This document shows, in pieces, positions 28,012-37,993 of a stretch of DNA of 64,000 nt (positions are counted from its first letter, which is position 1; the number at the start of each line of letters is the position of its first letter). The notes beneath the pieces are model-generated. The model did not search any database and had not been told where the DNA came from. It was given only the letters and a program-made list of their open reading frames with translations. This DNA comes from Kiritimatiellia bacterium (GTDB taxonomy: Bacteria > Verrucomicrobiota > Kiritimatiellia > PWTM01), in contig JAOACR010000007.1 in the NCBI GenBank assembly GCA_026417735.1, positions 124,001-188,000 on the forward strand, read 5' to 3'. The translations under genes were made by a program, and so were the position numbers.

Positions 28012-28058
28012 TTGACAATCTATTGATGAATAACGGTTTGGAAAAATTGGATTGTCAA
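28012..28058. promoter_or_regulatory. AT-rich island with perfect 9-base inverted repeat upstream of the MoxR operon
   Basis: TTGACAATC at 28012-28020 is mirrored exactly by GATTGTCAA at 28050-28058, with 29 bases between. The island continues to about 28110 and is clearly lower in GC than all surrounding DNA. Each arm also carries a -35-like hexamer (TTGACA or, read on the other strand, TTGACA again), so the repeat could be two divergent -35 boxes or a bipartite operator. It lies 100 bases upstream of the moxR start and is the natural place for that operon's promoter. Confidence 0.5.
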
Positions 28059-28160
28059 ACTCCCGGTTTTTTGGCAAACTAAATCGAACGTTATGGGGTT
28101 TGAACACGTCAAATGGGCGGTGCACTCCTTCTGACAAAGGGTGTATCCGGTGCCTTTTGG

Positions 28161-29150
28161 ATGAGCGGCGGAATCAGTTGGATTAACGAACAGGTTAGGG
28201 CGCAGTCGGGGCTTGTGGAGCGGCTGCGCGCGGAAATCGCGAAAGTCATCATCGGCCAACAGCATTTGGTGGACCGAATGTTGATTGCGCTGTTGGCCGA
28301 TGGCCACATTTTGGTGGAGGGCGTACCGGGGCTGGCGAAAACGCTGGCTGTCCGGACACTGGCGGCGGCGCTCAACACGAAATTTCAGCGGATTCAGTTC
28401 ACACCGGACCTGCTGCCCGCGGATCTGATCGGTACGCAGATTTACAACCCTCGAGACGGCACATTTAGCGTTCGGCTCGGTCCGATCTTTGCGAACATTG
28501 TGCTCGCGGACGAGATCAACCGTGCGCCCGCAAAGGTGCAGAGCGCGCTGCTCGAGGCAATGCAGGAACGGCAGGTGACGATTGCGGGTCAGGCACATCC
28601 GCTGCCAGAGCCTTTTCTGGTGCTCGCGACACAGAATCCAATCGAGCAGGAAGGAACGTATCCGCTGCCCGAAGCGCAGGTGGACCGTTTCATGTTGAAG
28701 GTGCGGGTGGGGTATCCCACCCGCGAGGAGGAGCGGCGCATCGTTGAGGCGGAAGCGCGTACACGGAAGGTTCGCGACGTGCGGCCGGTCGTTGACCCGG
28801 CGGCGATTCTGGCTGCCCGGGCGGTGGTGGACGAAATCTACGTGGACGAGAAGATCCGCGAGTATGTGCTCGATATTGTCACCGCGACGCGCGACCCTGC
28901 CGCGTTCAAGCTCGACCTTGCACCGTTCATCCGGTACGGCGCCTCGCCGCGCGCGACGATCTATCTCACGCTCGCCGCGCGAGCGCGCGCGTTCCTCGAG
29001 GGGCGCGGGTATGTGACACCGCAGGATGTGAAGAGTGTGGCGCCCGACGTGCTGCGCCACCGCATACTGCCGACGTATGAGGCTGAGGCCGAGGAGATCA
29101 CGCCCGATGCGTTGATCAACCGGGTCCTCAGCGAACTGCCGGTGCCGTAG
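28161..29150 (+). CDS. MoxR family AAA+ ATPase
   Basis: A 329-residue ATPase with Walker A GVPGLAKT, Walker B IVLADEINRAPAKVQSALLE and sensor 1 LATQNPIEQEGTYPLPEAQ, all characteristic of MoxR. The C-terminal helical lid is complete (FIRYGASPRATIYLTLAARA). MoxR proteins act as chaperone-like ATPases, usually with von Willebrand A (VWA) partners, in assembly or quality control of envelope or enzyme complexes. The gene opens a run of DUF58 and Bat genes, its usual company. The ATG at 28161 was chosen over the upstream one at 28113 because conserved sequence begins only after it. Confidence 0.93.
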   Translation: MSGGISWINEQVRAQSGLVERLRAEIAKVIIGQQHLVDRMLIALLADGHILVEGVPGLAKTLAVRTLAAALNTKFQRIQFTPDLLPADLIGTQIYNPRDGTFSVRLGPIFANIVLADEINRAPAKVQSALLEAMQERQVTIAGQAHPLPEPFLVLATQNPIEQEGTYPLPEAQVDRFMLKVRVGYPTREEERRIVEAEARTRKVRDVRPVVDPAAILAARAVVDEIYVDEKIREYVLDIVTATRDPAAFKLDLAPFIRYGASPRATIYLTLAARARAFLEGRGYVTPQDVKSVAPDVLRHRILPTYEAEAEEITPDALINRVLSELPVP

Positions 29151-29178: not shown

Positions 29179-29616
29179 GTGTACGAGATCTCCGATTTGC
29201 CGAAAGCGGCCGACCGTTTCATCGCCCGCATTCGCGATCTGGTGGAGGTGTTGCCCCGCGACGATCTGGCGGGCCAGGCGCTGAGCGTGGAGCTGGAGGC
29301 CGCGCACCGGCGTTTCGTCGAGACGTGGAACAGCATCGGCGGGCTGCCGTGTCGTGATCCCCGTCTCTGGCAGCAGCTGGAGCAGGCCGCGGACCGCTGT
29401 CTGCATCTGATCGAGCTCCTCTGGAGAACTCAGATGCTGCATCCCCCGAGAGTGCTGCAGATTCTTGCGCACGGTCGGGCTTTCGCGGACGCGCTGGCGC
29501 AGCGCCGTCCGGCCGCGCGCCGCGGCGCGGTGACGGCGTCGGCGCCGTCCGGCCGCGCGACCGCCCGCCGGAGCGTGCCGCGGCGTGCCGCGCGCGCGGC
29601 CCGCGCGGTGCGATGA
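29179..29616 (+). CDS. Unrecognised helical protein between moxR and DUF58 gene
   Basis: A 145-residue protein read from GTG at 29179, preceded by the strong site AAGGAGG, and overlapping the next gene in ATGA, so translation is well supported. The N-terminal 100 residues are predicted helical by eye (LPKAADRFIARIRDLVEVLP, WQQLEQAADRCLHLIELLWR). The last 40 residues are a basic, Ala/Arg-rich tail. No signal peptide or membrane helix is visible. I do not recognise the family. Its fixed place inside a MoxR/Bat operon suggests a cytoplasmic adaptor of the ATPase, which is inference. Confidence 0.7.
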   Translation: MYEISDLPKAADRFIARIRDLVEVLPRDDLAGQALSVELEAAHRRFVETWNSIGGLPCRDPRLWQQLEQAADRCLHLIELLWRTQMLHPPRVLQILAHGRAFADALAQRRPAARRGAVTASAPSGRATARRSVPRRAARAARAVR

Positions 29617-30497
29617 TCCCGCAGGAGCTGCTGCGCAAGGTCCGGCGCATCGAGCTGCGGTCGCGCCGGTTGGTGAACGAGGTCTTTGCGGGCAGCTACC
29701 ACAGCGTTTTCAAAGGCCGCGGCATCGAGTTCGACGAGGTCCGCGAGTACACCATCGGCGATGATGTGCGCACGATCGACTGGAACGTGACCGCCCGCAT
29801 GGGCCAGCCGTTCGTGAAGAAGTACGTCGAGGAACGGGAGCTGACGGTGGTGCTGGTCGCAGATGTCAGCGCGTCGAACCGGTTCGGCAGCCGCGCGCAG
29901 CTGAAGAGCGACCTGATTGCGGAGATCGCGGCGGTGCTCGCGTTTTCCGCGATCCGCAACAACGACCGCGTGGGGGTGCTGCTCTTTTCCAACCAGGTCG
30001 AGCGGTTTGTGCCGCCGCGCAAGGGCGTAGCCCACGGTCTTCGTGTGATTCGGGAGGTGCTGGCGGCCGAGCCGGAACAGCGGGGTACGGACGTGGGGCC
30101 GGCCGTGGAGTTCCTGAACCACGCCCTGCACCGGCGGGCGGTGGTGTTTCTGTTGAGCGATTTCCTCTTTCCCGAGCCGCGGCGGCGTGCGCTGGCGGTC
30201 GCCGCGCGTCGACACGACCTGATCGCGGTGATCGTCCAAGACCGGCGTGAGCTGGCCTGGCCGCGCGCCGGCGTGGTGGAGTGGTGGGATGTGGAGTCCG
30301 GGCTTTGCCGACTGGTGGACACCTCCAACGCCCGTGTGCGCCGGCAGCTCACCGAGGCCGCGACCGCACACCGGCGGGCGTGGCTGGACCGGCTGCGTGC
30401 GGTCGGCGCCGACGCGATTGAAGTCACCACGGGGGAACCCTACGACCGGGCGTTGGTGCGTTTCTTCCGCGAGCGTGAGCGCCGGCAGCGTCTCTGA
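29613..30497 (+). CDS. DUF58 domain protein
   Basis: A 294-residue protein with the DUF58 signature SVFKGRGIEFDEVREYTIG followed by DDVRTIDWNVTARMG. A VWA-like core follows (VVLVADVSASNRFG, VGVLLFSNQVERFVPP, FLLSDFLFPEP). DUF58 proteins accompany MoxR ATPases in most bacteria and are thought to be their substrate-binding or assembly partners at the membrane. The metal-site motif DVSAS retains the DxSxS pattern. It overlaps the preceding small gene and is followed after two bases by a lipoprotein-like gene, consistent with one operon. Confidence 0.92.
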   Translation: MIPQELLRKVRRIELRSRRLVNEVFAGSYHSVFKGRGIEFDEVREYTIGDDVRTIDWNVTARMGQPFVKKYVEERELTVVLVADVSASNRFGSRAQLKSDLIAEIAAVLAFSAIRNNDRVGVLLFSNQVERFVPPRKGVAHGLRVIREVLAAEPEQRGTDVGPAVEFLNHALHRRAVVFLLSDFLFPEPRRRALAVAARRHDLIAVIVQDRRELAWPRAGVVEWWDVESGLCRLVDTSNARVRRQLTEAATAHRRAWLDRLRAVGADAIEVTTGEPYDRALVRFFRERERRQRL

Positions 30498-30499
30498 CG

Positions 30500-31483
30500 A
30501 TGGTTGGTTTTTCCGCGATGGTTGCGGCTTGCCGCAGTCGTCCAGCCGCCTTCGTGCTGCTGTTGATGGCGGGATGCGCTGACCCCACGCCGAGGCCGGC
30601 ACGATGGAGGGAGACGAACGGGCCGGTGCGCGTTGAGGTCGAATGGCCGACCAATCAGTTCGGTGTGGGAGAACCGGCCCGGGTGCGGCTGTGGGTGGAC
30701 CACCCCGTGGGAGGAACGCCGGCGGTGGTCGAACCGGCGGGTGCGAGCAATCAGGTGATCGTGCTGGAACGGCAGGTGCGTCCGGGCCGGCGGCGGGGAG
30801 AACGGGCGGTTCACGAGTGGCGGTGGCGCGTGACCTCGTTTGAGTTTGGGCGTCACGCGCTGTGGACCGGTTTTCCCGTCGTTGTGGCGGCTGAAGGCCG
30901 GGTCGAGTTCCCGGTGTGTCCCGCCGCGATTGACGTGGTGCCAGTCCGGGACGCCCGTCAGAGCGACTGGGGGCCGCTGAAGGGGCCGGCCGTCTGGCCG
31001 GGCAGATTTCCGCGGTGGCTGTGGGTGTTCGGTTTGATCGCCGCCCTCGCTGCTGCGCTCGGCTGGGGAACCGCACGGCTTCTTCGACGGCCCCCACCGC
31101 CCCCGCCGCCGCCTCCGCCGCCCGATCGTGTGGCGCTGGCCGCGCTGGAGCGACTGCGTGCATCTGGTGCGATGGAGGCTGGGCAGACGGAATATGTGTA
31201 CGTGGAGCTCTCCCGCATCGTGCGCGCATATCTGGAGGCGCGGTTCGGGTTGCATGCGCCCGAACGCACCACGGAGGAGTTTCTCCGCGAGGCGGCGGAG
31301 TCTGGCGCGTTGGCCGCGACACATCAGGCCTGCCTGAAGAACTTTTTGACCGCCTGTGACTTGGTGAAATTCGCTCGGGAGCGGCCAGGGGCAGACGAGA
31401 TGCTCTCCGCCTTCGAGACGGCGCGGCAGTTTGTCGAGGAGACGGCGCCGGCCGCGGGGGCGGCGCAGGAGCAGCCGCGGTGA
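30500..31483 (+). CDS. Membrane-anchored Bat-operon protein (DUF4381-like)
   Basis: A 327-residue protein with a lipoprotein-type leader ending in LLLMAGC. A beta-rich periplasmic domain of about 140 residues follows (VRVEVEWPTNQFGVGEPARV). Next are a membrane helix near residues 172-195 (WLWVFGLIAALAAALGWG), an eleven-proline run after RLLRR, and a cytoplasmic helical domain (YVYVELSRIVRAYLEARFGL, CLKNFLTACDLVKFARERP). The helical part resembles DUF4381/BatD C-terminal domains found in these operons. It is translationally tied to its neighbours. Likely a structural link between the envelope and the MoxR ATPase; that role is inferred from context. Confidence 0.75.
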   Translation: MVGFSAMVAACRSRPAAFVLLLMAGCADPTPRPARWRETNGPVRVEVEWPTNQFGVGEPARVRLWVDHPVGGTPAVVEPAGASNQVIVLERQVRPGRRRGERAVHEWRWRVTSFEFGRHALWTGFPVVVAAEGRVEFPVCPAAIDVVPVRDARQSDWGPLKGPAVWPGRFPRWLWVFGLIAALAAALGWGTARLLRRPPPPPPPPPPPDRVALAALERLRASGAMEAGQTEYVYVELSRIVRAYLEARFGLHAPERTTEEFLREAAESGALAATHQACLKNFLTACDLVKFARERPGADEMLSAFETARQFVEETAPAAGAAQEQPR

Positions 31484-32475
31484 CGTTTCACGATCCATGG
31501 TGGCTGCTGGCGTTGACGCTGGTACCGGCCGCGGTGTGGTTCTGCGCGCGACCGGCCGCGCGTGGGCGGGTATGGTTTTCGGACGGGGCGGCGCTCGCGC
31601 GGCTGCCGGCGACGCCGGCGACGCGGGTGGCAGCGCTGCTTCCGCTGCTGCACGGTGCGGGTCTCGGGTGTTTGATTGTTGCGCTTGCGCGGCCGCAGCG
31701 GGGACTCGAAGACAGCGTCGTGCGCACCGATGCGGTGGACATCGTGCTGGTTGCGGACGTGTCGCCCTCGATGGCGGCCGAGGACTTCTCCACGCGCCAA
31801 CGGCGAATGAACCGGCTCGACGCCGCCAAGCGGGTGATGGACGAGTTTGTGCGGGCGCGGGCGAACGACCGCCTCGGCCTGGTTGTCTTTGCGGGCTGGC
31901 CGTACACCGCCGCACCGCTGACGGTGGACCACGCCTGGTTGCGACAGCGGATTGCGGAACTGCGCGTCGGGATGGTCGGCGACGGTACCGCGATCGGCTC
32001 GGCGCTGGCCGCCGCGGTGAACCGGCTTCGGGAAAGCCGCGCGAAGAGTCGCGTTGTGGTGCTGCTGACCGACGGCATGAACAACGCCGGCTCGATATCG
32101 CCGGACGACGCCGCGCTGGCGGCCGCGGCGCTTGGGGTGAAGGTGTACACAGTCGGCGCCGGCACGCGCGGCACTGCCCCAGTGCCGGTGCAGACGCCGT
32201 TTGGCGTACAGTACGTGCCCCAGGCGGTGGAGATTGACGAGGCGCTGCTGCAGCGCATCGCCGCGGAGACGGGGGGGCAGTATTTTCGGGCCACGGATCT
32301 CGCCTCGCTGGAGGAGGTGTATCGGCAAATCGACCGGATGGAGAAGACGCCGATCGAGAGTCGTCGCTATCTTCGATATGAGGAGCGCTTCAGCGGTTGG
32401 GCGGTCGCGTCGGCGCTGCTGTTGCTGCTGGAGACGGTGCTAGGGCTTTCGCGGTTTGGGAGGCTGCCGCCGTGA
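31480..32475 (+). CDS. batA: VWA-domain protein of BatA type
   Basis: A 331-residue membrane protein read from GTG at 31480, overlapping the gene before it. It begins with FHDPWWLLALTLVPAAVW, the usual BatA N-terminal helix, then a second helix. The VWA domain has the metal-ion motif VADVSPSMAAEDF, the Thr region GDGTAIGSALAAAVNRL and the Asp region LLTDGMNNAG. A C-terminal helix (WAVASALLLLLETVLG) completes the two-anchor topology. Bat proteins were named for aerotolerance in Bacteroides, but their exact partner is unsettled. It overlaps the BatB gene by four bases. Confidence 0.9.
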   Translation: MTFHDPWWLLALTLVPAAVWFCARPAARGRVWFSDGAALARLPATPATRVAALLPLLHGAGLGCLIVALARPQRGLEDSVVRTDAVDIVLVADVSPSMAAEDFSTRQRRMNRLDAAKRVMDEFVRARANDRLGLVVFAGWPYTAAPLTVDHAWLRQRIAELRVGMVGDGTAIGSALAAAVNRLRESRAKSRVVVLLTDGMNNAGSISPDDAALAAAALGVKVYTVGAGTRGTAPVPVQTPFGVQYVPQAVEIDEALLQRIAAETGGQYFRATDLASLEEVYRQIDRMEKTPIESRRYLRYEERFSGWAVASALLLLLETVLGLSRFGRLPP

Positions 32476-34298
32476 TCGCATGGGGGCGGCCGGGGCTGTT
32501 GTGGCTACTGCCCGTCTGCGTACTGCTGGCGCGGGTGGCATGGTGGATGCTGCGCCGCCGCGAGCGGGCGCTCGCCGAGCTGATCGAGCCCGCTCTATGG
32601 CCCGCTGTGGTCCCGCGTCATGATCGCCGCCGCGTCTGCCGGCGGCTGGCGCTTCGGTTTTCGGCGCTGGCGCTGATCGGCGTTGCACTGGCGCGGCCGC
32701 AGTGGGGGGAGCGCGAAGAGGTTGCTCGGCGGCGGGGGTTGCAGATTGTCGTTGCGTTGGATGTTTCGAAAAGCATGCTGGCGACGGATCTGAAACCGTC
32801 CCGCCTGCAACAGGCGAAGTGGGGTGTGCGGGATTTGGTGGCGCGGCTTCGCGGCGACCGAATCGGCCTGGTTGCGTTTGCGGGCAACGCGTTTGTGCAG
32901 TGCCCGCTGACTTCTGACTATGGCGCGTTTTTGATCCTGCTCGACGATGTGTCCACCGACACCATCCCTCGCGGCGGCACCGCGGTCGGCGCGGCAATCC
33001 GCACCGCGCTGGCTGCGTTCGATGCGGAGGCCGGCGGGGACCGGGTGCTGATGCTGGTCACCGACGGGGAGAGCCACGAGGATGATCCGCTGGAGACGCT
33101 CGACGAGCTGCGCGCCCGGGGAGTGCGGGTGTATGCGGTCGGCGTTGGGTCTCCGGAGGGCGAGCTGATCCCGCTGCCGGATGGAGGTTTTCTGAAAGAT
33201 CGCGCCGGCCGTGTGGTGAAGGCAGGGCTCCGCGAAGACGTGCTCACAAAACTCGCCGCGGGCAGCGGCGGCGCGTATGTGCGTGCGGCGCCGGGCGACT
33301 TCGGTCTGGACCGGCTCTACGAGGAGCATGTGAGCCGGCTTCAGCGCGCGGAGCAGGAAGCCCGGCTACTGCGCACCGGTGAGGAGCGGTTTTCGCTCTT
33401 CCTCGCCGCGGCAGCCTTGATGCTGATCCTGGAAGTGGTGCTCCGCGGCACACCGCCGGCGGTGCGGGCGGGGGGTGCGGCCGCGTTGCTCCTGCTCTCC
33501 ACGGTCGGGGCGCCGGCGGCGGGGGGTGGGGCCCGGGAGCGCATGGAGGAAGGTCTCCGTCACTTCCGCGCCAATCGTTGGCACGAGGCCGCCGCCGCGT
33601 TCGATGCTGCCGCGAAGGCGGCGCCGGCCGAGCGGCTCGATGCGGCCGCCGCCCGTCTTAACGAGTCGCTCGCCCGGTTGCGTGCGGGCGAGAGCGCCGC
33701 GGCGGAGACCGCGCTGGAGCACGCGATGCGGACCGCCGACCGTTCGCTGTTGGCCGATGCACTCTATAACCGTGGCTGGATGCGCGCGCAGCGGGCATCC
33801 GCGGCCCGAGAGGGCGGTCGTTTGCCGGAGGCGCAGACGAACGCGGCGATGGCACTCACCGATTTTCGGGACGTGTTGCTGCTGCGCCCCTCTGACCACG
33901 ACGCACGGGTCAACTACGAGCTCGCGCGCGAATTGCTGGCTGAGATTACACGGCAAATCACGAACGCGCCGTCGCCGACGCAGCCCGAGCCCAGCAGCTC
34001 GCCGGCCGGCGCACCGCAAGAGTCCGCTCAGCCGGCCGAATCCGGCAACGAGATGCCTCCCCAGTCCACGCCGCAGCCCCGCTCTGAGGACGCCAGCCAG
34101 CCGGCCGACGCCGCACCGCAACCGGCGGAGGCGAGCGGCGAGAGTGGGCCGCAGACGATGCCGGCGCAACGGCGCCGAGGCCGGATGACGCCGGAAGAGG
34201 CCGAGATGCTGCTGGATCAGATCAAGGCGGAGGAGGCGGCGATTCGCTGGAAGACACGTTCTCGCGCTCCTCCAGTACCAGTGGAGAAAGACTGGTAA
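32472..34298 (+). CDS. BatB-type VWA protein fused to a BatC-like TPR tail
   Basis: A 608-residue protein from GTG at 32472. Residues 1-320 are BatB: membrane helices, the metal motif VALDVSKSMLATDLKPSR, then RGGTAVGAAIRTALAAFDAE and LMLVTDGESHEDDPLE, with a further helix near residue 320. After about residue 360 the protein becomes TPR-like (GLRHFRANRWHEAAAAFDAA, ALYNRGWMRAQRASAAR, RPSDHDARVNYELARELLA), matching BatC, which is normally a separate gene. A Pro/Ser/Gln-rich linker and the basic end motif EEAEMLLDQIKAEEAAIRW close it. The fusion fits BatB and BatC acting together. No frameshift is seen. Confidence 0.88.
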   Translation: MIAWGRPGLLWLLPVCVLLARVAWWMLRRRERALAELIEPALWPAVVPRHDRRRVCRRLALRFSALALIGVALARPQWGEREEVARRRGLQIVVALDVSKSMLATDLKPSRLQQAKWGVRDLVARLRGDRIGLVAFAGNAFVQCPLTSDYGAFLILLDDVSTDTIPRGGTAVGAAIRTALAAFDAEAGGDRVLMLVTDGESHEDDPLETLDELRARGVRVYAVGVGSPEGELIPLPDGGFLKDRAGRVVKAGLREDVLTKLAAGSGGAYVRAAPGDFGLDRLYEEHVSRLQRAEQEARLLRTGEERFSLFLAAAALMLILEVVLRGTPPAVRAGGAAALLLLSTVGAPAAGGGARERMEEGLRHFRANRWHEAAAAFDAAAKAAPAERLDAAAARLNESLARLRAGESAAAETALEHAMRTADRSLLADALYNRGWMRAQRASAAREGGRLPEAQTNAAMALTDFRDVLLLRPSDHDARVNYELARELLAEITRQITNAPSPTQPEPSSSPAGAPQESAQPAESGNEMPPQSTPQPRSEDASQPADAAPQPAEASGESGPQTMPAQRRRGRMTPEEAEMLLDQIKAEEAAIRWKTRSRAPPVPVEKDW

Positions 34299-34335
34299 GC
34301 GGCGGGCGGGCGCTCTTTCCGGGTTGCTCGGAGTG

Positions 34336-34454
34336 CGGGAAAAATTTAGCAAATTTCTTGCAATTGCCCTCTTGCGCGAGCGGGATCGATTTGCGATCGT
34401 ATGGGCCAGAAGCTGGGGCGCTCTGCGGGGCGCTGCAGTTTTGAGGAGAGAGGT
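34336..34454 (+). promoter_or_regulatory. AT-rich promoter region of the PEP-CTERM gene
   Basis: The stretch after the BatB/C gene turns AT-rich and carries AAATTTAGCAAATTT (34342-34356), the palindrome GCAATTGC (34360-34367) and the inverted repeat GATCG-atttg-CGATC (34384-34398). The site GAGGAGAGAGGT precedes the ATG. No convincing -35/-10 pair could be fixed by eye, but the composition change and the repeats mark a regulatory region separate from the bat operon. Confidence 0.4.
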
Positions 34455-35231
34455 ATGAGCCGGAAGGTCGTATTGGGGCTGGTTGCGCTCGCGTGGGCGG
34501 CGCGCGCGCAGATCATCAACATCAACAACGCGACGTCGTTCTCATACTCCCAGAATTTCAACACGCTCGCCAGCAGCGGAAGCGGGAACTCCTGGACGGA
34601 TAACTCGACCATTCCCGGCTGGTGGTGGGATTCAAACAACGCGGCCCGGAACCCCGATAGCTACGGCTACATCGCCGATCCGGGAACGGACACGACGGGT
34701 GCAGGTCACAGCTACGGGGCGTCGGGCAGCAGCGAACGCGCGATCGGCGCACTCTCCTCCTCGGGAACCGACATCAGTATCGGTGTGCAGTTTGTCAACG
34801 GGTCGGGCAGCCCGATTTCGCTCGCGAACATTCTGATCAGCTATGTGGGCGAGCAGTGGCGACGGCAAACCGCCGCGCAGACGTTGACCTTCAGCTACCA
34901 GATCTCCTCGTCTCCGATCGCGAACACCTTGAGCGGGACGTGGACTCCTCAGACGGCGCTCAACTTCACGGGGCCGCAAGTGGGCTCGGCAGGTGCGATT
35001 GACGGTAACAGCCCGGCGAACCAGGTGTCCTTCTCGAGTGTGCCGCTGGCGTCGTCCGGCTCGCTGGGCAGTGGCCAGTATCTGATGCTGCGCTGGTACA
35101 AGACGGGGACCTCCTCGCCGGGGCTGGCGGTGGACGACTTCCAGCTGGCGGTGGTGCCGGAGCCCGGGTCTGTCGCGATGCTGGCGCTGGGCGCGACGTT
35201 GGTCAAAGCACTACGCCGGCGGCGGCGTTAA
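34455..35231 (+). CDS. PEP-CTERM sorting-domain surface protein
   Basis: A 258-residue exported protein with a signal peptide (VVLGLVALAWAARA) and a Ser/Asn/Gly-rich beta-structured body (SFSYSQNFNTLASSGSGNSW, AVDDFQLAVVPEPGS). The C-terminus has the complete PEP-CTERM signal: VPEPGS, a hydrophobic helix (VAMLALGATLVKAL) and the basic end RRRRR. Such proteins are cut and anchored or released by an exosortase, usually in EPS-producing bacteria, which fits the EPS cluster nearby. No exosortase gene is in the window. The body resembles ExeM-like or PEP-CTERM lectin-like proteins, but no enzymatic motif is visible. It has its own upstream AT-rich region and a terminator, so it is expressed apart from the flanking bat genes. 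Confidence 0.92.
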   Translation: MSRKVVLGLVALAWAARAQIININNATSFSYSQNFNTLASSGSGNSWTDNSTIPGWWWDSNNAARNPDSYGYIADPGTDTTGAGHSYGASGSSERAIGALSSSGTDISIGVQFVNGSGSPISLANILISYVGEQWRRQTAAQTLTFSYQISSSPIANTLSGTWTPQTALNFTGPQVGSAGAIDGNSPANQVSFSSVPLASSGSLGSGQYLMLRWYKTGTSSPGLAVDDFQLAVVPEPGSVAMLALGATLVKALRRRRR

Positions 35232-35259
35232 GCTCTCACTCCGCTGTGCGCCGGACGCG

Positions 35260-35294
35260 ACGCCGCCCTCGCGAAGGGGCGGCGTTGCTGTTTT
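35260..35294 (+). terminator. Intrinsic terminator of the PEP-CTERM gene
   Basis: A perfect nine-base stem ACGCCGCCC (35260-35268) and GGGCGGCGT (35277-35285) with an eight-base loop, followed by TGCTGTTTT. It lies 28 bases after the stop codon. The T-rich tail makes it a good Rho-independent terminator by eye. Confidence 0.8.
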
Positions 35295-35384
35295 GAGGGA
35301 GTCGGGGGAGGCTGCGGCACGAGGGAGGCGCGGCGCTTGCGTCTCGAACGCAGCCGCCGCATCGTGGTCCAACTCACGGTGGCG

Positions 35385-37184
35385 ATGTTCCGGGGGCGGA
35401 TCAAGATTGGGCTGGGTAGTTGTGTGGCGGCCGCCGCGCTGATGCTCGCGCTCCGCGAGCCGGTGGTCGCGGGCGAGCCGGCCGTGCTCTTCGACGTTCA
35501 GCCGCGCGTGCTGGCGGTCGGAGAGACCGCGTTGGCGACGATCATGCTGCGCAATCTGGATGGTGCGGACGCCCCCTCGCCGCCCTCGACGGACGCCTTT
35601 CGAGTCGAGCCTGCAGGCGTGGAGCACCGGTTGCAGATGAGCGGCGGGGCGGCGGATCGGTGGGTCGTTCACAAGTTTGCGTTGACCGCGCTAAAAGCCG
35701 GCGAGCACACGATCGGGCCGTTGCGAGTGGCGGCGGGGGGGCGCGTCTGGGAGCTTCCGGCGGTGCGGCTGAGTGTGGCGCCGGCGGCCGCTGGCGCCGG
35801 TGCGGGAGTGGAGGCTCGCGCGATGGCACGCCTCCGACTGAACAAATCGTCGGTGTATGTGCACGAGCCGTTTACGATTGAGATTGACCTGCTCAGCCAC
35901 GGCGTCGAACTGGACCGGCAGGTGGAGCTGCAGAACATGCCGACCGCCGGTCTGAAGATCGGGCCGTTTGCGGAACTGCCGTTGCGCCGCGAAATCGTGG
36001 AGGGGGAGGTGTTCGATGTGCGGACGTTCCGAGCGGAGGCACGCGCGCTGAACTCTGGAGAGTTGCCTCTGCAACCGGTGCTGAGTGCGCAGGCGATCGT
36101 GCGGCGTGGCCGCCGGTCCAGTGATCCGCTGTTCGGCCCGTTTGAGGATTTCTTCGTGGGCACGCCCTTTGAGCGCGTGGAGCGCCGCCCTGTGGTGTTG
36201 CCGGCCGCGCCGGTGACGCTGACGGTCCGGCCGCTGCCGCTGGAAGGTCGGCCGGAGTCGTTCAGTGGTGCGGTCGGGGCGTGCACGTGGGATGTGGAGG
36301 TGCGTCCGATGGAGGTGAACGCGGGCGAACCGGTGACGATCACGATGACGATCCGGGGTGACGCGAACCTCGACACCGTCCGCGCGCCGACGGTGCGGCT
36401 AGGGCCGGAATTCCGGGTGTATGAACCGCGTCTGGTGTCGCGGCCGGGTCGGGACGAGAGGGAGCGCGTATTCGAGCAGATCGTGATTCCGCGCGACGAG
36501 ACCGCCCGCGAGATTCCCGCGCTGGCGTTCGCCTATTTTGATCCCATCGAAGGGAAGTACCGCGAGTTGGTGCGGGGGCCTTTTCCGCTGGTTGTCCGGC
36601 CCCAGACCAACGGTGCCGCCGCGCTGCGGGTGAGTGTGCCGGTTGGGGGAGCGACTGGACCGCAGGTGGTTTCGGAAGGGACGGAGATCGCTTATTTGAA
36701 GAGCGTGCCGGTGCGCCCGCGACGGGGGCTTCAGCCCTCGCCGGTGGGCGTCGCGTTGAACGTGGTTGCGCCTCCGCTGCTGGCGGCCGCGGTGCTCGGT
36801 TGGGTTCGGCGGCGCGAGCGGATCGCATCGGATCCGGCGCTCGCGCGACGCGCGCGCGCGCCCCGGGCGGCGCGGGCGGCGGTCCGGCGGATGCGCGAAG
36901 CCGTGGGAGGAAACGCGAGAGAGTTTTACGACGCGATGTGGAGCGCGCTGACCAGTTACTTTGGCGACCGGTTGAACCTACCACCTGGCGATGTGGACGC
37001 GGAGCGGGTGCTCGCCGCATTCGGACCGGCGATCGAGGAACCTGTGCGGCGGGCCATTGCGGAGCTGTTCGCGCAGTGTGCGTCGGCGCGGTTTGGGGGG
37101 GGAGAGGCGCCGGCGTCGGTGCGGCGGGAGCAGCTCGACCGGCTGCTCGGGGTGCTCGCGCGTTGCGAGCGGGTGCGGCGGTGA
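35385..37184 (+). CDS. batD: BatD-type oxygen-tolerance family protein
   Basis: A 599-residue protein with a signal peptide (CVAAAALMLALREPVVAG). Repeated immunoglobulin-like beta domains follow (LFDVQPRVLAVGETALATIM, LNKSSVYVHEPFTIEIDLL, VRPMEVNAGEPVTITMTIRG), a membrane helix near residue 465 (NVVAPPLLAAAVLGWV) and a cytoplasmic helical domain (AREFYDAMWSALTSYFGDRL). This is the BatD layout. It presumably reaches into the periplasm and couples to the BatA/BatB VWA proteins. A TTG at 35337 would give a longer form; the ATG at 35385 better fits the signal peptide. The stop overlaps the GTG of the next gene. Confidence 0.9.
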   Translation: MFRGRIKIGLGSCVAAAALMLALREPVVAGEPAVLFDVQPRVLAVGETALATIMLRNLDGADAPSPPSTDAFRVEPAGVEHRLQMSGGAADRWVVHKFALTALKAGEHTIGPLRVAAGGRVWELPAVRLSVAPAAAGAGAGVEARAMARLRLNKSSVYVHEPFTIEIDLLSHGVELDRQVELQNMPTAGLKIGPFAELPLRREIVEGEVFDVRTFRAEARALNSGELPLQPVLSAQAIVRRGRRSSDPLFGPFEDFFVGTPFERVERRPVVLPAAPVTLTVRPLPLEGRPESFSGAVGACTWDVEVRPMEVNAGEPVTITMTIRGDANLDTVRAPTVRLGPEFRVYEPRLVSRPGRDERERVFEQIVIPRDETAREIPALAFAYFDPIEGKYRELVRGPFPLVVRPQTNGAAALRVSVPVGGATGPQVVSEGTEIAYLKSVPVRPRRGLQPSPVGVALNVVAPPLLAAAVLGWVRRRERIASDPALARRARAPRAARAAVRRMREAVGGNAREFYDAMWSALTSYFGDRLNLPPGDVDAERVLAAFGPAIEEPVRRAIAELFAQCASARFGGGEAPASVRREQLDRLLGVLARCERVRR

Positions 37185-37993
37185 GGGTGGCCGCACACAC
37201 GGCGATGGCGGTGCTGGCGCTGTGGTTTGCCGCGGTCGCAGCGGGGGCGGAGCCGAGGTGGCCGGAGGCGGCGGCGGCCTACGATGGGGGGCGGTATGCC
37301 GAGGCGGCGGCGATATGGGAGCGGGCGCTGCGGGAGGGAGCGGACGACGCGGCGCTCTGGTTCAACGTCGGCAACGCGCGGTTCCGCCTCGGCCGGTTGG
37401 GTGCGGCGGTTGCTGCGTTCCGTCGTGCATGGCGGCTGGCACCGCGCGATCCGCAGATTCTGGGGAACCTCCGGTTGGCGATGGAGGCGGGCGGTGCGTC
37501 GCCGCCCCGCCGGCGCTGGTACGAAGAGATGCTGGAGCGCCTGTCCGTGGACGAAGCGCGATGGTTGGGGCAGGCCGGCTGGTGGGCGTTGTGGGGGCTG
37601 CTGACGGCGGCGCGGGCGGTGGGCGCGAGCGCGGCGGCGCCATGGCTGCGGCGGGCGGCGGTGGTGGCGGCGTGCGCGGCGGCGCTGGGGGGGGCGGCCG
37701 TCTGGCACGGTCGGCGGCTCGACGCGGAGCACGTCGTGGTGGCAGCGGGCCGCAGCGCGCAGTTTGCGCCGCTCGACACTGCGCGTGCCCATTTCACGTT
37801 GCCGCTCGGGTCGGTCGTGGAGGTGGTGGAAGTTCGCGGGGAGTGGCGGCGAATCCGGCTCGACGGACGCGATGGATGGGTGCGCGCGGACGCGCTGTTG
37901 CCGGTGGCCGACGCCGCCTCGGCGGAGGGTGGGGCGCTGCGGCTGCGTGCGGAGGAGACCTCGCCCGAACCGGCGGGTCGCGGCGCGGATTGA
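37181..37993 (+). CDS. BatE-type protein with TPR and SH3 domains
   Basis: A 270-residue protein read from GTG at 37181, coupled to batD. A signal-like helix (MAVLALWFAAVAAGAE) precedes two TPR-like units (YDGGRYAEAAAIWERALREG, FNVGNARFRLGRLGAAVAA). Two further membrane helices lie near residues 127-175, and a C-terminal bacterial SH3 domain follows (LPLGSVVEVVEVRGEWRRIR, DGRDGWVRADALLP). This matches BatE of the Bacteroides-type operon, where TPR parts assemble partner proteins and SH3 domains bind peptides or cell wall. The tail is Ala/Glu-rich. Confidence 0.85.
   Translation: MRVAAHTAMAVLALWFAAVAAGAEPRWPEAAAAYDGGRYAEAAAIWERALREGADDAALWFNVGNARFRLGRLGAAVAAFRRAWRLAPRDPQILGNLRLAMEAGGASPPRRRWYEEMLERLSVDEARWLGQAGWWALWGLLTAARAVGASAAAPWLRRAAVVAACAAALGGAAVWHGRRLDAEHVVVAAGRSAQFAPLDTARAHFTLPLGSVVEVVEVRGEWRRIRLDGRDGWVRADALLPVADAASAEGGALRLRAEETSPEPAGRGAD

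Follow-up and report, generated by a model that had tools for sequence, protein, structure and literature searches.

Organization of the bat locus

The window, that is the whole 64-kb stretch of DNA analysed in this study, belongs to a genome (G000) with a 3.09-Mb assembly in 24 contigs. It holds a run of genes in the order moxR, a small ORF, a DUF58 gene, a presumed DUF4381-like gene, batA, batB with a batC-like tail, a PEP-CTERM gene, batD and batE. The features discussed below are:

28052..28094, + strand: promoter-like leader of moxR, TTGTCA-N17-CAAACT-AAATCGAAC (putative promoter)
28113..29150, + strand: moxR, AAA+ ATPase (PF07726 AAA_3, 222.5 bits)
29179-29616: small ORF in the interval between moxR and the DUF58 gene, without Pfam match
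29613..30497, + strand: DUF58 gene (PF01882, 249 bits)
start at 30500: gene without Pfam match, presumed to be DUF4381-like
31480..32475, + strand: batA, VWA protein (PF00092, PF07584)
32472..34298, + strand: batB with a batC-like tail, ending in PVEKDW (PF13519, 78 bits)
34336..34385, + strand: AT-rich leader (52% AT), putative promoter region of the inserted gene
34455..35231, + strand: PEP-CTERM gene (258 aa; TIGR02595 above cut-off; a 77% identical gene follows batC in G001)
35257..35294, + strand: putative intrinsic terminator of the inserted gene (hairpin 35257-35288)
35334..35372, + strand: conserved batD leader element, candidate batDE promoter (-35 TTGCGT at 35337-35342; -10 CATCGT at 35360-35365)
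35385..37184, + strand: batD (PF13584, 47.7 bits; ATG at 35385)
37181..37993, + strand: batE, TPR and SH3 domains (PF13432, PF06347)

By Pfam content and synteny, with MoxR, DUF58, the VWA proteins BatA and BatB, BatD and the TPR protein BatE in order, the locus is a Bat (Bacteroides aerotolerance) operon that follows the usual moxR-batABCDE arrangement. It differs from that arrangement in two respects, namely that BatB and a BatC-like tail share one frame and that a foreign gene with a terminator is located between batC and batD. The BatC-like tail gave no Pfam TPR match; judged by eye, however, the same type of tail is kept upstream of batD in relatives. The small ORF at 29179-29616 is kept at 67-70% in G002, G003 and G006. 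The first-pass annotation had described a PEP-CTERM gene between batB/C and batD, preceded by an AT-rich stretch and followed by a terminator, and all three parts were recovered here as the ORF 34455-35231, the 52% AT leader and the hairpin at 35257-35288.

The PEP-CTERM gene and its product

The PEP-CTERM ORF could have a longer start, with an in-frame ATG at 34401. Its product consists of a putative N-terminal signal peptide, MSRKVVLGLVALAWAARA, recognised by eye, a mature domain and a C-terminal VVPEP-TM-RRRRR sequence, and this end, with its PEP motif, transmembrane helix and basic cluster, scores 20.7 bits with TIGR02595 (cut-off 16); the Pfam profile PF07589 gave 19.5, narrowly below its cut-off of 20.7. 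An exosortase is encoded in the same genome (PF09721 at C9:342567-343385, E 4e-52, 178 bits against a cut-off of 25.7), and 16 PEP-CTERM matches lie above the NCBIfam cut-off, which the same profile search also exceeds in 2 of 14 control genomes. A paralogue of the gene, 36% identical, is present on contig C21. The PEP-CTERM/exosortase system described by Haft et al. (2006, PMC1569441) likewise combines a C-terminal PEP-TM-basic signal, present in many copies per genome, with a co-present exosortase; compared with that description, the gene studied here is set within a bat operon and no sigma-54 leader was found for it.

An AlphaFold model of the protein has a mean pLDDT of 42 and is therefore too poor for a fold search, and no homologue of solved structure was detected at E values up to 1. 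A literature search, which most subscription papers lay outside, found no paper with both 'PEP-CTERM' and 'MoxR'. Elsewhere in the genome, contigs C1, C9 and C18 (L086, L089, L091, L094) contain several very long PEP-CTERM open frames of 1449-2876 aa, whose C-terminal ends are mutually alike.

Leader and terminator of the PEP-CTERM gene

At 52% AT against 32% window-wide, the segment 34336-34385 is among the top 0.7% of 50-mers. A promoter scan found no sigma-70 consensus promoter in the leader region, and a promoter shared with the G001 gene was rejected after comparison of the two leaders gave no conserved block. It has been reported that pepA of Aquincola tertiaricarbonis is an RpoN-dependent PEP-CTERM gene (PMC9850573), and pepA resembles the present case in that its transcription is under control separate from that of the gene downstream of it. 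The gene studied here might likewise be under sigma-54/PrsR control as part of a PEP-CTERM regulon, which would be consistent with the presence of rpoN in the genome and with the sequence TAGCAAATTTCTTGCA, which resembles a -24/-12 promoter at 9 of 12 scored positions. However, 23.5% of shuffles score as high. When the motif TGGCACG-N4-TTGCW was sought before this gene and its paralogues (11 of the 16 PEP-CTERM places; the other five, with no clear start or at a contig edge, were omitted), none of the 11 leaders stood out above shuffles, the lowest shuffle fraction being 17.5%, and the candidate was rejected. Unlike in A. tertiaricarbonis, a sigma-54 -24/-12 promoter is thus unsupported, and we would give hardly any weight to sigma-54 control.

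Downstream of the gene, a 13-pair stem (35257-35288) is followed by TGTTTTGA with a run of 4 T, as in an intrinsic (Rho-independent) terminator. A permissive scan of 33800-36000 gave one site where 1.7 were expected in shuffles, that is, chance level. When the scan was tightened to stems of 12 or more pairs, with 9 or more G-C, and to 4 or more T in 8, a threshold set after the hit was known, this hairpin was the sole site on both strands of the window, and 10 block-shuffled windows gave 0 sites on the + strand. The fold of 35250-35300 has a z of -3.4 (1 of 200 shuffles as good), and that of the longer segment 35229-35330 a z of -1.1 (37 of 200). As the T-tract is short, termination may be leaky and read-through possible. 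The only Rfam match, to sraL, was below threshold (18 bits against 39, E 0.23) and was taken as chance.

Gene order in related genomes

For comparison, 58 genomes including G000 were searched with BatD (query starting at 35388, one codon past the ATG). A match was found in 53, and 30, again including G000, gave loci; the gene order was thus read at 29 relative loci, over up to 1.5 kb upstream in each, with the 23 other matched genomes outside this reading. In 24 of the 29, from 11 families, batC, recognised by eye from its ...DW end, is the next gene before batD, with gaps ranging from an overlap to 247 nt. Three of the remaining five loci are cut by contig ends (L029, L044, L048), the locus of G001 is split and G007 has another ORF upstream. 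No homologue of the PEP-CTERM gene was detected upstream of batD at any of the 29 loci (tblastn at 1e-3). The congeners G002 and G003 have an intact batC-batD junction without the gene, and the only other place where it adjoins batC is in the congener G001. It had been proposed that the gene may be a late insertion, and that the same order in distant genera would argue against this; such conservation was not found in the 29 loci. A late insertion is supported, since none of the 24 readable junctions, congeners included, contains the gene. As a difference in gene order the insertion is real, and among the loci read it is confined to G000 and G001.

In G001, batC and then the PEP-CTERM gene lie at C9:18.3-21.2 kb, while batD-batE-PPK2-speA occupy roughly the 54-59 kb interval of that contig, approximately 40 kb away. 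The break point is between the PEP-CTERM gene and the batD leader element, and it is flanked by the REP-like sequence GGGGACAGGCAC, with 7 copies in the 1.5 kb upstream of batD and 2 within 0.5 kb after the PEP-CTERM gene. A repeat-mediated rearrangement is plausible in G001, although with 460 copies of this sequence in that genome their presence at the break may be coincidental. Copy numbers in other genomes are 30 in G002, 1 in G000 and 0 in G007, and the G001 copies (L049 7909-8480, L102 8980-9300) reflect a large lineage-specific repeat expansion.

In G007, which represents another genus of the family, batD-batE are also apart from moxR-batC (L109 from 3339; L043/L055): the gene after batC is an opposite-strand ORF, and batD occupies a different contig, on which the preceding 7 kb or more consist of non-bat sequence. 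Since neither the PEP-CTERM gene nor the repeat is present in G007, this separation happened without them. Two contigs assigned to different genera, G008:C42 (L057) and G005:C149 (L054), have near-equal sizes (14525 and 14519) and near-identical bat matches; G008 has another batD on C15, and the two contigs are possibly mixed bins.

Distribution of the PEP-CTERM gene

Matches to the PEP-CTERM protein occur in 16 of the 58 genomes, and at least 60% identity over most of the length is reached, besides G000, only in G001, G005 and G008; a 67% match in G014 covers only the 27-residue sorting signal. In a collection of 84,980 species genomes, two narrow peptide patterns retrieved three loci only, on contigs equal in length to those of G001, G005 and G008. 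The G005 and G008 orthologues, 63-65% identical, lie directly after a VTT-domain gene and away from bat. Among nine family members the gene is patchy at the 60% level (G000, G001, G005, G008), which fits either transfer or loss. The ratio of the G005 to the G001 distance is 1.79 for the PEP-CTERM protein and 1.59-4.45 for seven bat-locus genes, with the 1.59 of BatBC based on a partial match; the PEP-CTERM value is the second lowest and no outlier among bat-locus genes. The distances thus do not mark the gene as transferred, and it may have come by horizontal transfer or have been relocated within the genome. BatD of G000 is 72% identical to that of G001 and 61% to that of G002, so the insertion would most simply be dated after the split from G002.

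A conserved element upstream of batD

The batD leader element comprises 39 nt, located 13-51 nt before the ATG at 35385, with the pattern TTGCRT-N17-CAKYGT-GGTCSAA. It is matched at 34 of 39 positions in G001, 28 in G002 and 26 in G006 (0 of 300 shuffles in each case), where it starts 48-55 nt before the nominal batD start. It was not detected in the 24 other leaders (best 20/39), including that of the congener G003 (18/39, not significant); for L033 and L046, 7 and 6 of 300 shuffles were as good, which is weak among 24 tests. The next best match within the window is 25/39, and the genome has one exact match to the pattern, its two 3-mismatch matches equalling the number in the reversed control. 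In G002, where the PEP-CTERM gene is absent, the element directly follows the batC stop, and it is therefore independent of that gene.

Since the element is out of frame with batD in G001 and is separated from it by an in-frame TGA in G002, it is probably non-coding; in G000 and G006 it is open and in frame, without a stop, and could there be part of a longer batD start. By codon position, the differences from G000 are 4/0/1 in G001, 4/2/5 in G002 and 5/5/3 in G006. Compared with the sigma-70 consensus (-35 TTGACA, -10 TATAAT), each hexamer agrees at 3 of 6 positions, and a promoter scan of the region found none. The 17-nt spacing of the hexamers is kept in G000, G001, G002 and G006. The leader of moxR is conserved with G001 at 25 of 30 nt (28065-28094; 0 of 200 shuffles), with the common pattern TTG-N20-CAAWCT-AAATCGAAC.

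The element is most likely a batDE promoter that predates the insertion. An independent promoter would not be without precedent, as independent promoters within the bat cluster of Leptospira biflexa have been proposed from qRT-PCR on deletion mutants (PMC3557215); whereas that proposal came from expression measurements, ours is based on sequence conservation alone and places the candidate before batD, behind an insertion. The first-pass annotation had held that batD-batE must be expressed from another promoter. The conserved element and the separate position of batDE in G001 and G007 indirectly favour such a promoter; the word 'must' is too strong, given the short T-tract of the terminator.

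Interpretation of the locus

We consider it likely that a PEP-CTERM unit was inserted between batC and batD, upstream of an older batDE promoter, leaving the two halves of the operon decoupled and separable, and that sorting of the PEP-CTERM protein is independent of Bat. According to this model, a unit of leader, gene and terminator would have entered the batC/batD gap in the common ancestor of G000 and G001 and landed just 5' of the existing promoter-like element. Because of this position, batDE would have kept its expression from its own element even though the new terminator severed transcription from moxR-batC, and the decoupled halves could then separate physically, as in G001. Export of the PEP-CTERM protein would presumably depend on its signal peptide, and sorting on the exosortase of the genome. 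The promoter role of the element, a working terminator, the direction of change and the fate of the protein are what we infer from these comparisons.

The 39-nt element could instead bind a regulator or act as an RNA leader for batD, with read-through of a leaky terminator supplying the transcript, and its weak hexamers, the short T-tract and the extension of conservation beyond the putative -10 into GGTCSAA would all be consistent with this. The constant 17-nt spacing in four genomes and the comparable conserved leader at moxR in G000 and G001 speak for a promoter instead, and in G001 the 9 kb between the contig end and batD hold no bat gene from which read-through could come. We therefore regard a regulatory or RNA leader role as rather unlikely.

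More far-reaching alternatives tie the PEP-CTERM protein to Bat function. As the gene stayed with MoxR-BatABC in G001 when batDE separated, it may have been recruited to these proteins; Bat and exosortase sorting would then share an exported protein as their target, and batDE would form a separately regulated half-system with its own element. A link between exosortase sorting and Bat had been suggested before, and it is not upheld by the orthologues of G005 and G008 beside a VTT-domain gene or by the bat junctions of relatives, which are without the gene; we give recruitment little credence. Its position beside batC in two species and its remaining with moxR-batC in G001 could also mean that the gene belonged to the batC-batD region ancestrally, works with Bat and was repeatedly lost. 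However, it is missing from each of the 24 readable junctions (11 families, among 29 loci), and the G005 and G008 orthologues are away from bat, so that an ancestral position merits very little credence.

With insertion upstream of an older batDE promoter as the preferred explanation, these congeners would offer a readable series of operon break-up, from the intact junction (G002, G003) through a cassette with terminator (G000) to physical separation (G001). The conserved element before batD would explain why the first step, the insertion, was tolerated, and it provides a specific candidate location for the batDE promoter. That batDE lies apart in G001 and G007, two lineages of one family, suggests that the two Bat halves need not be co-transcribed. 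What we describe would thus be an ordinary but unusually legible case of operon disintegration.
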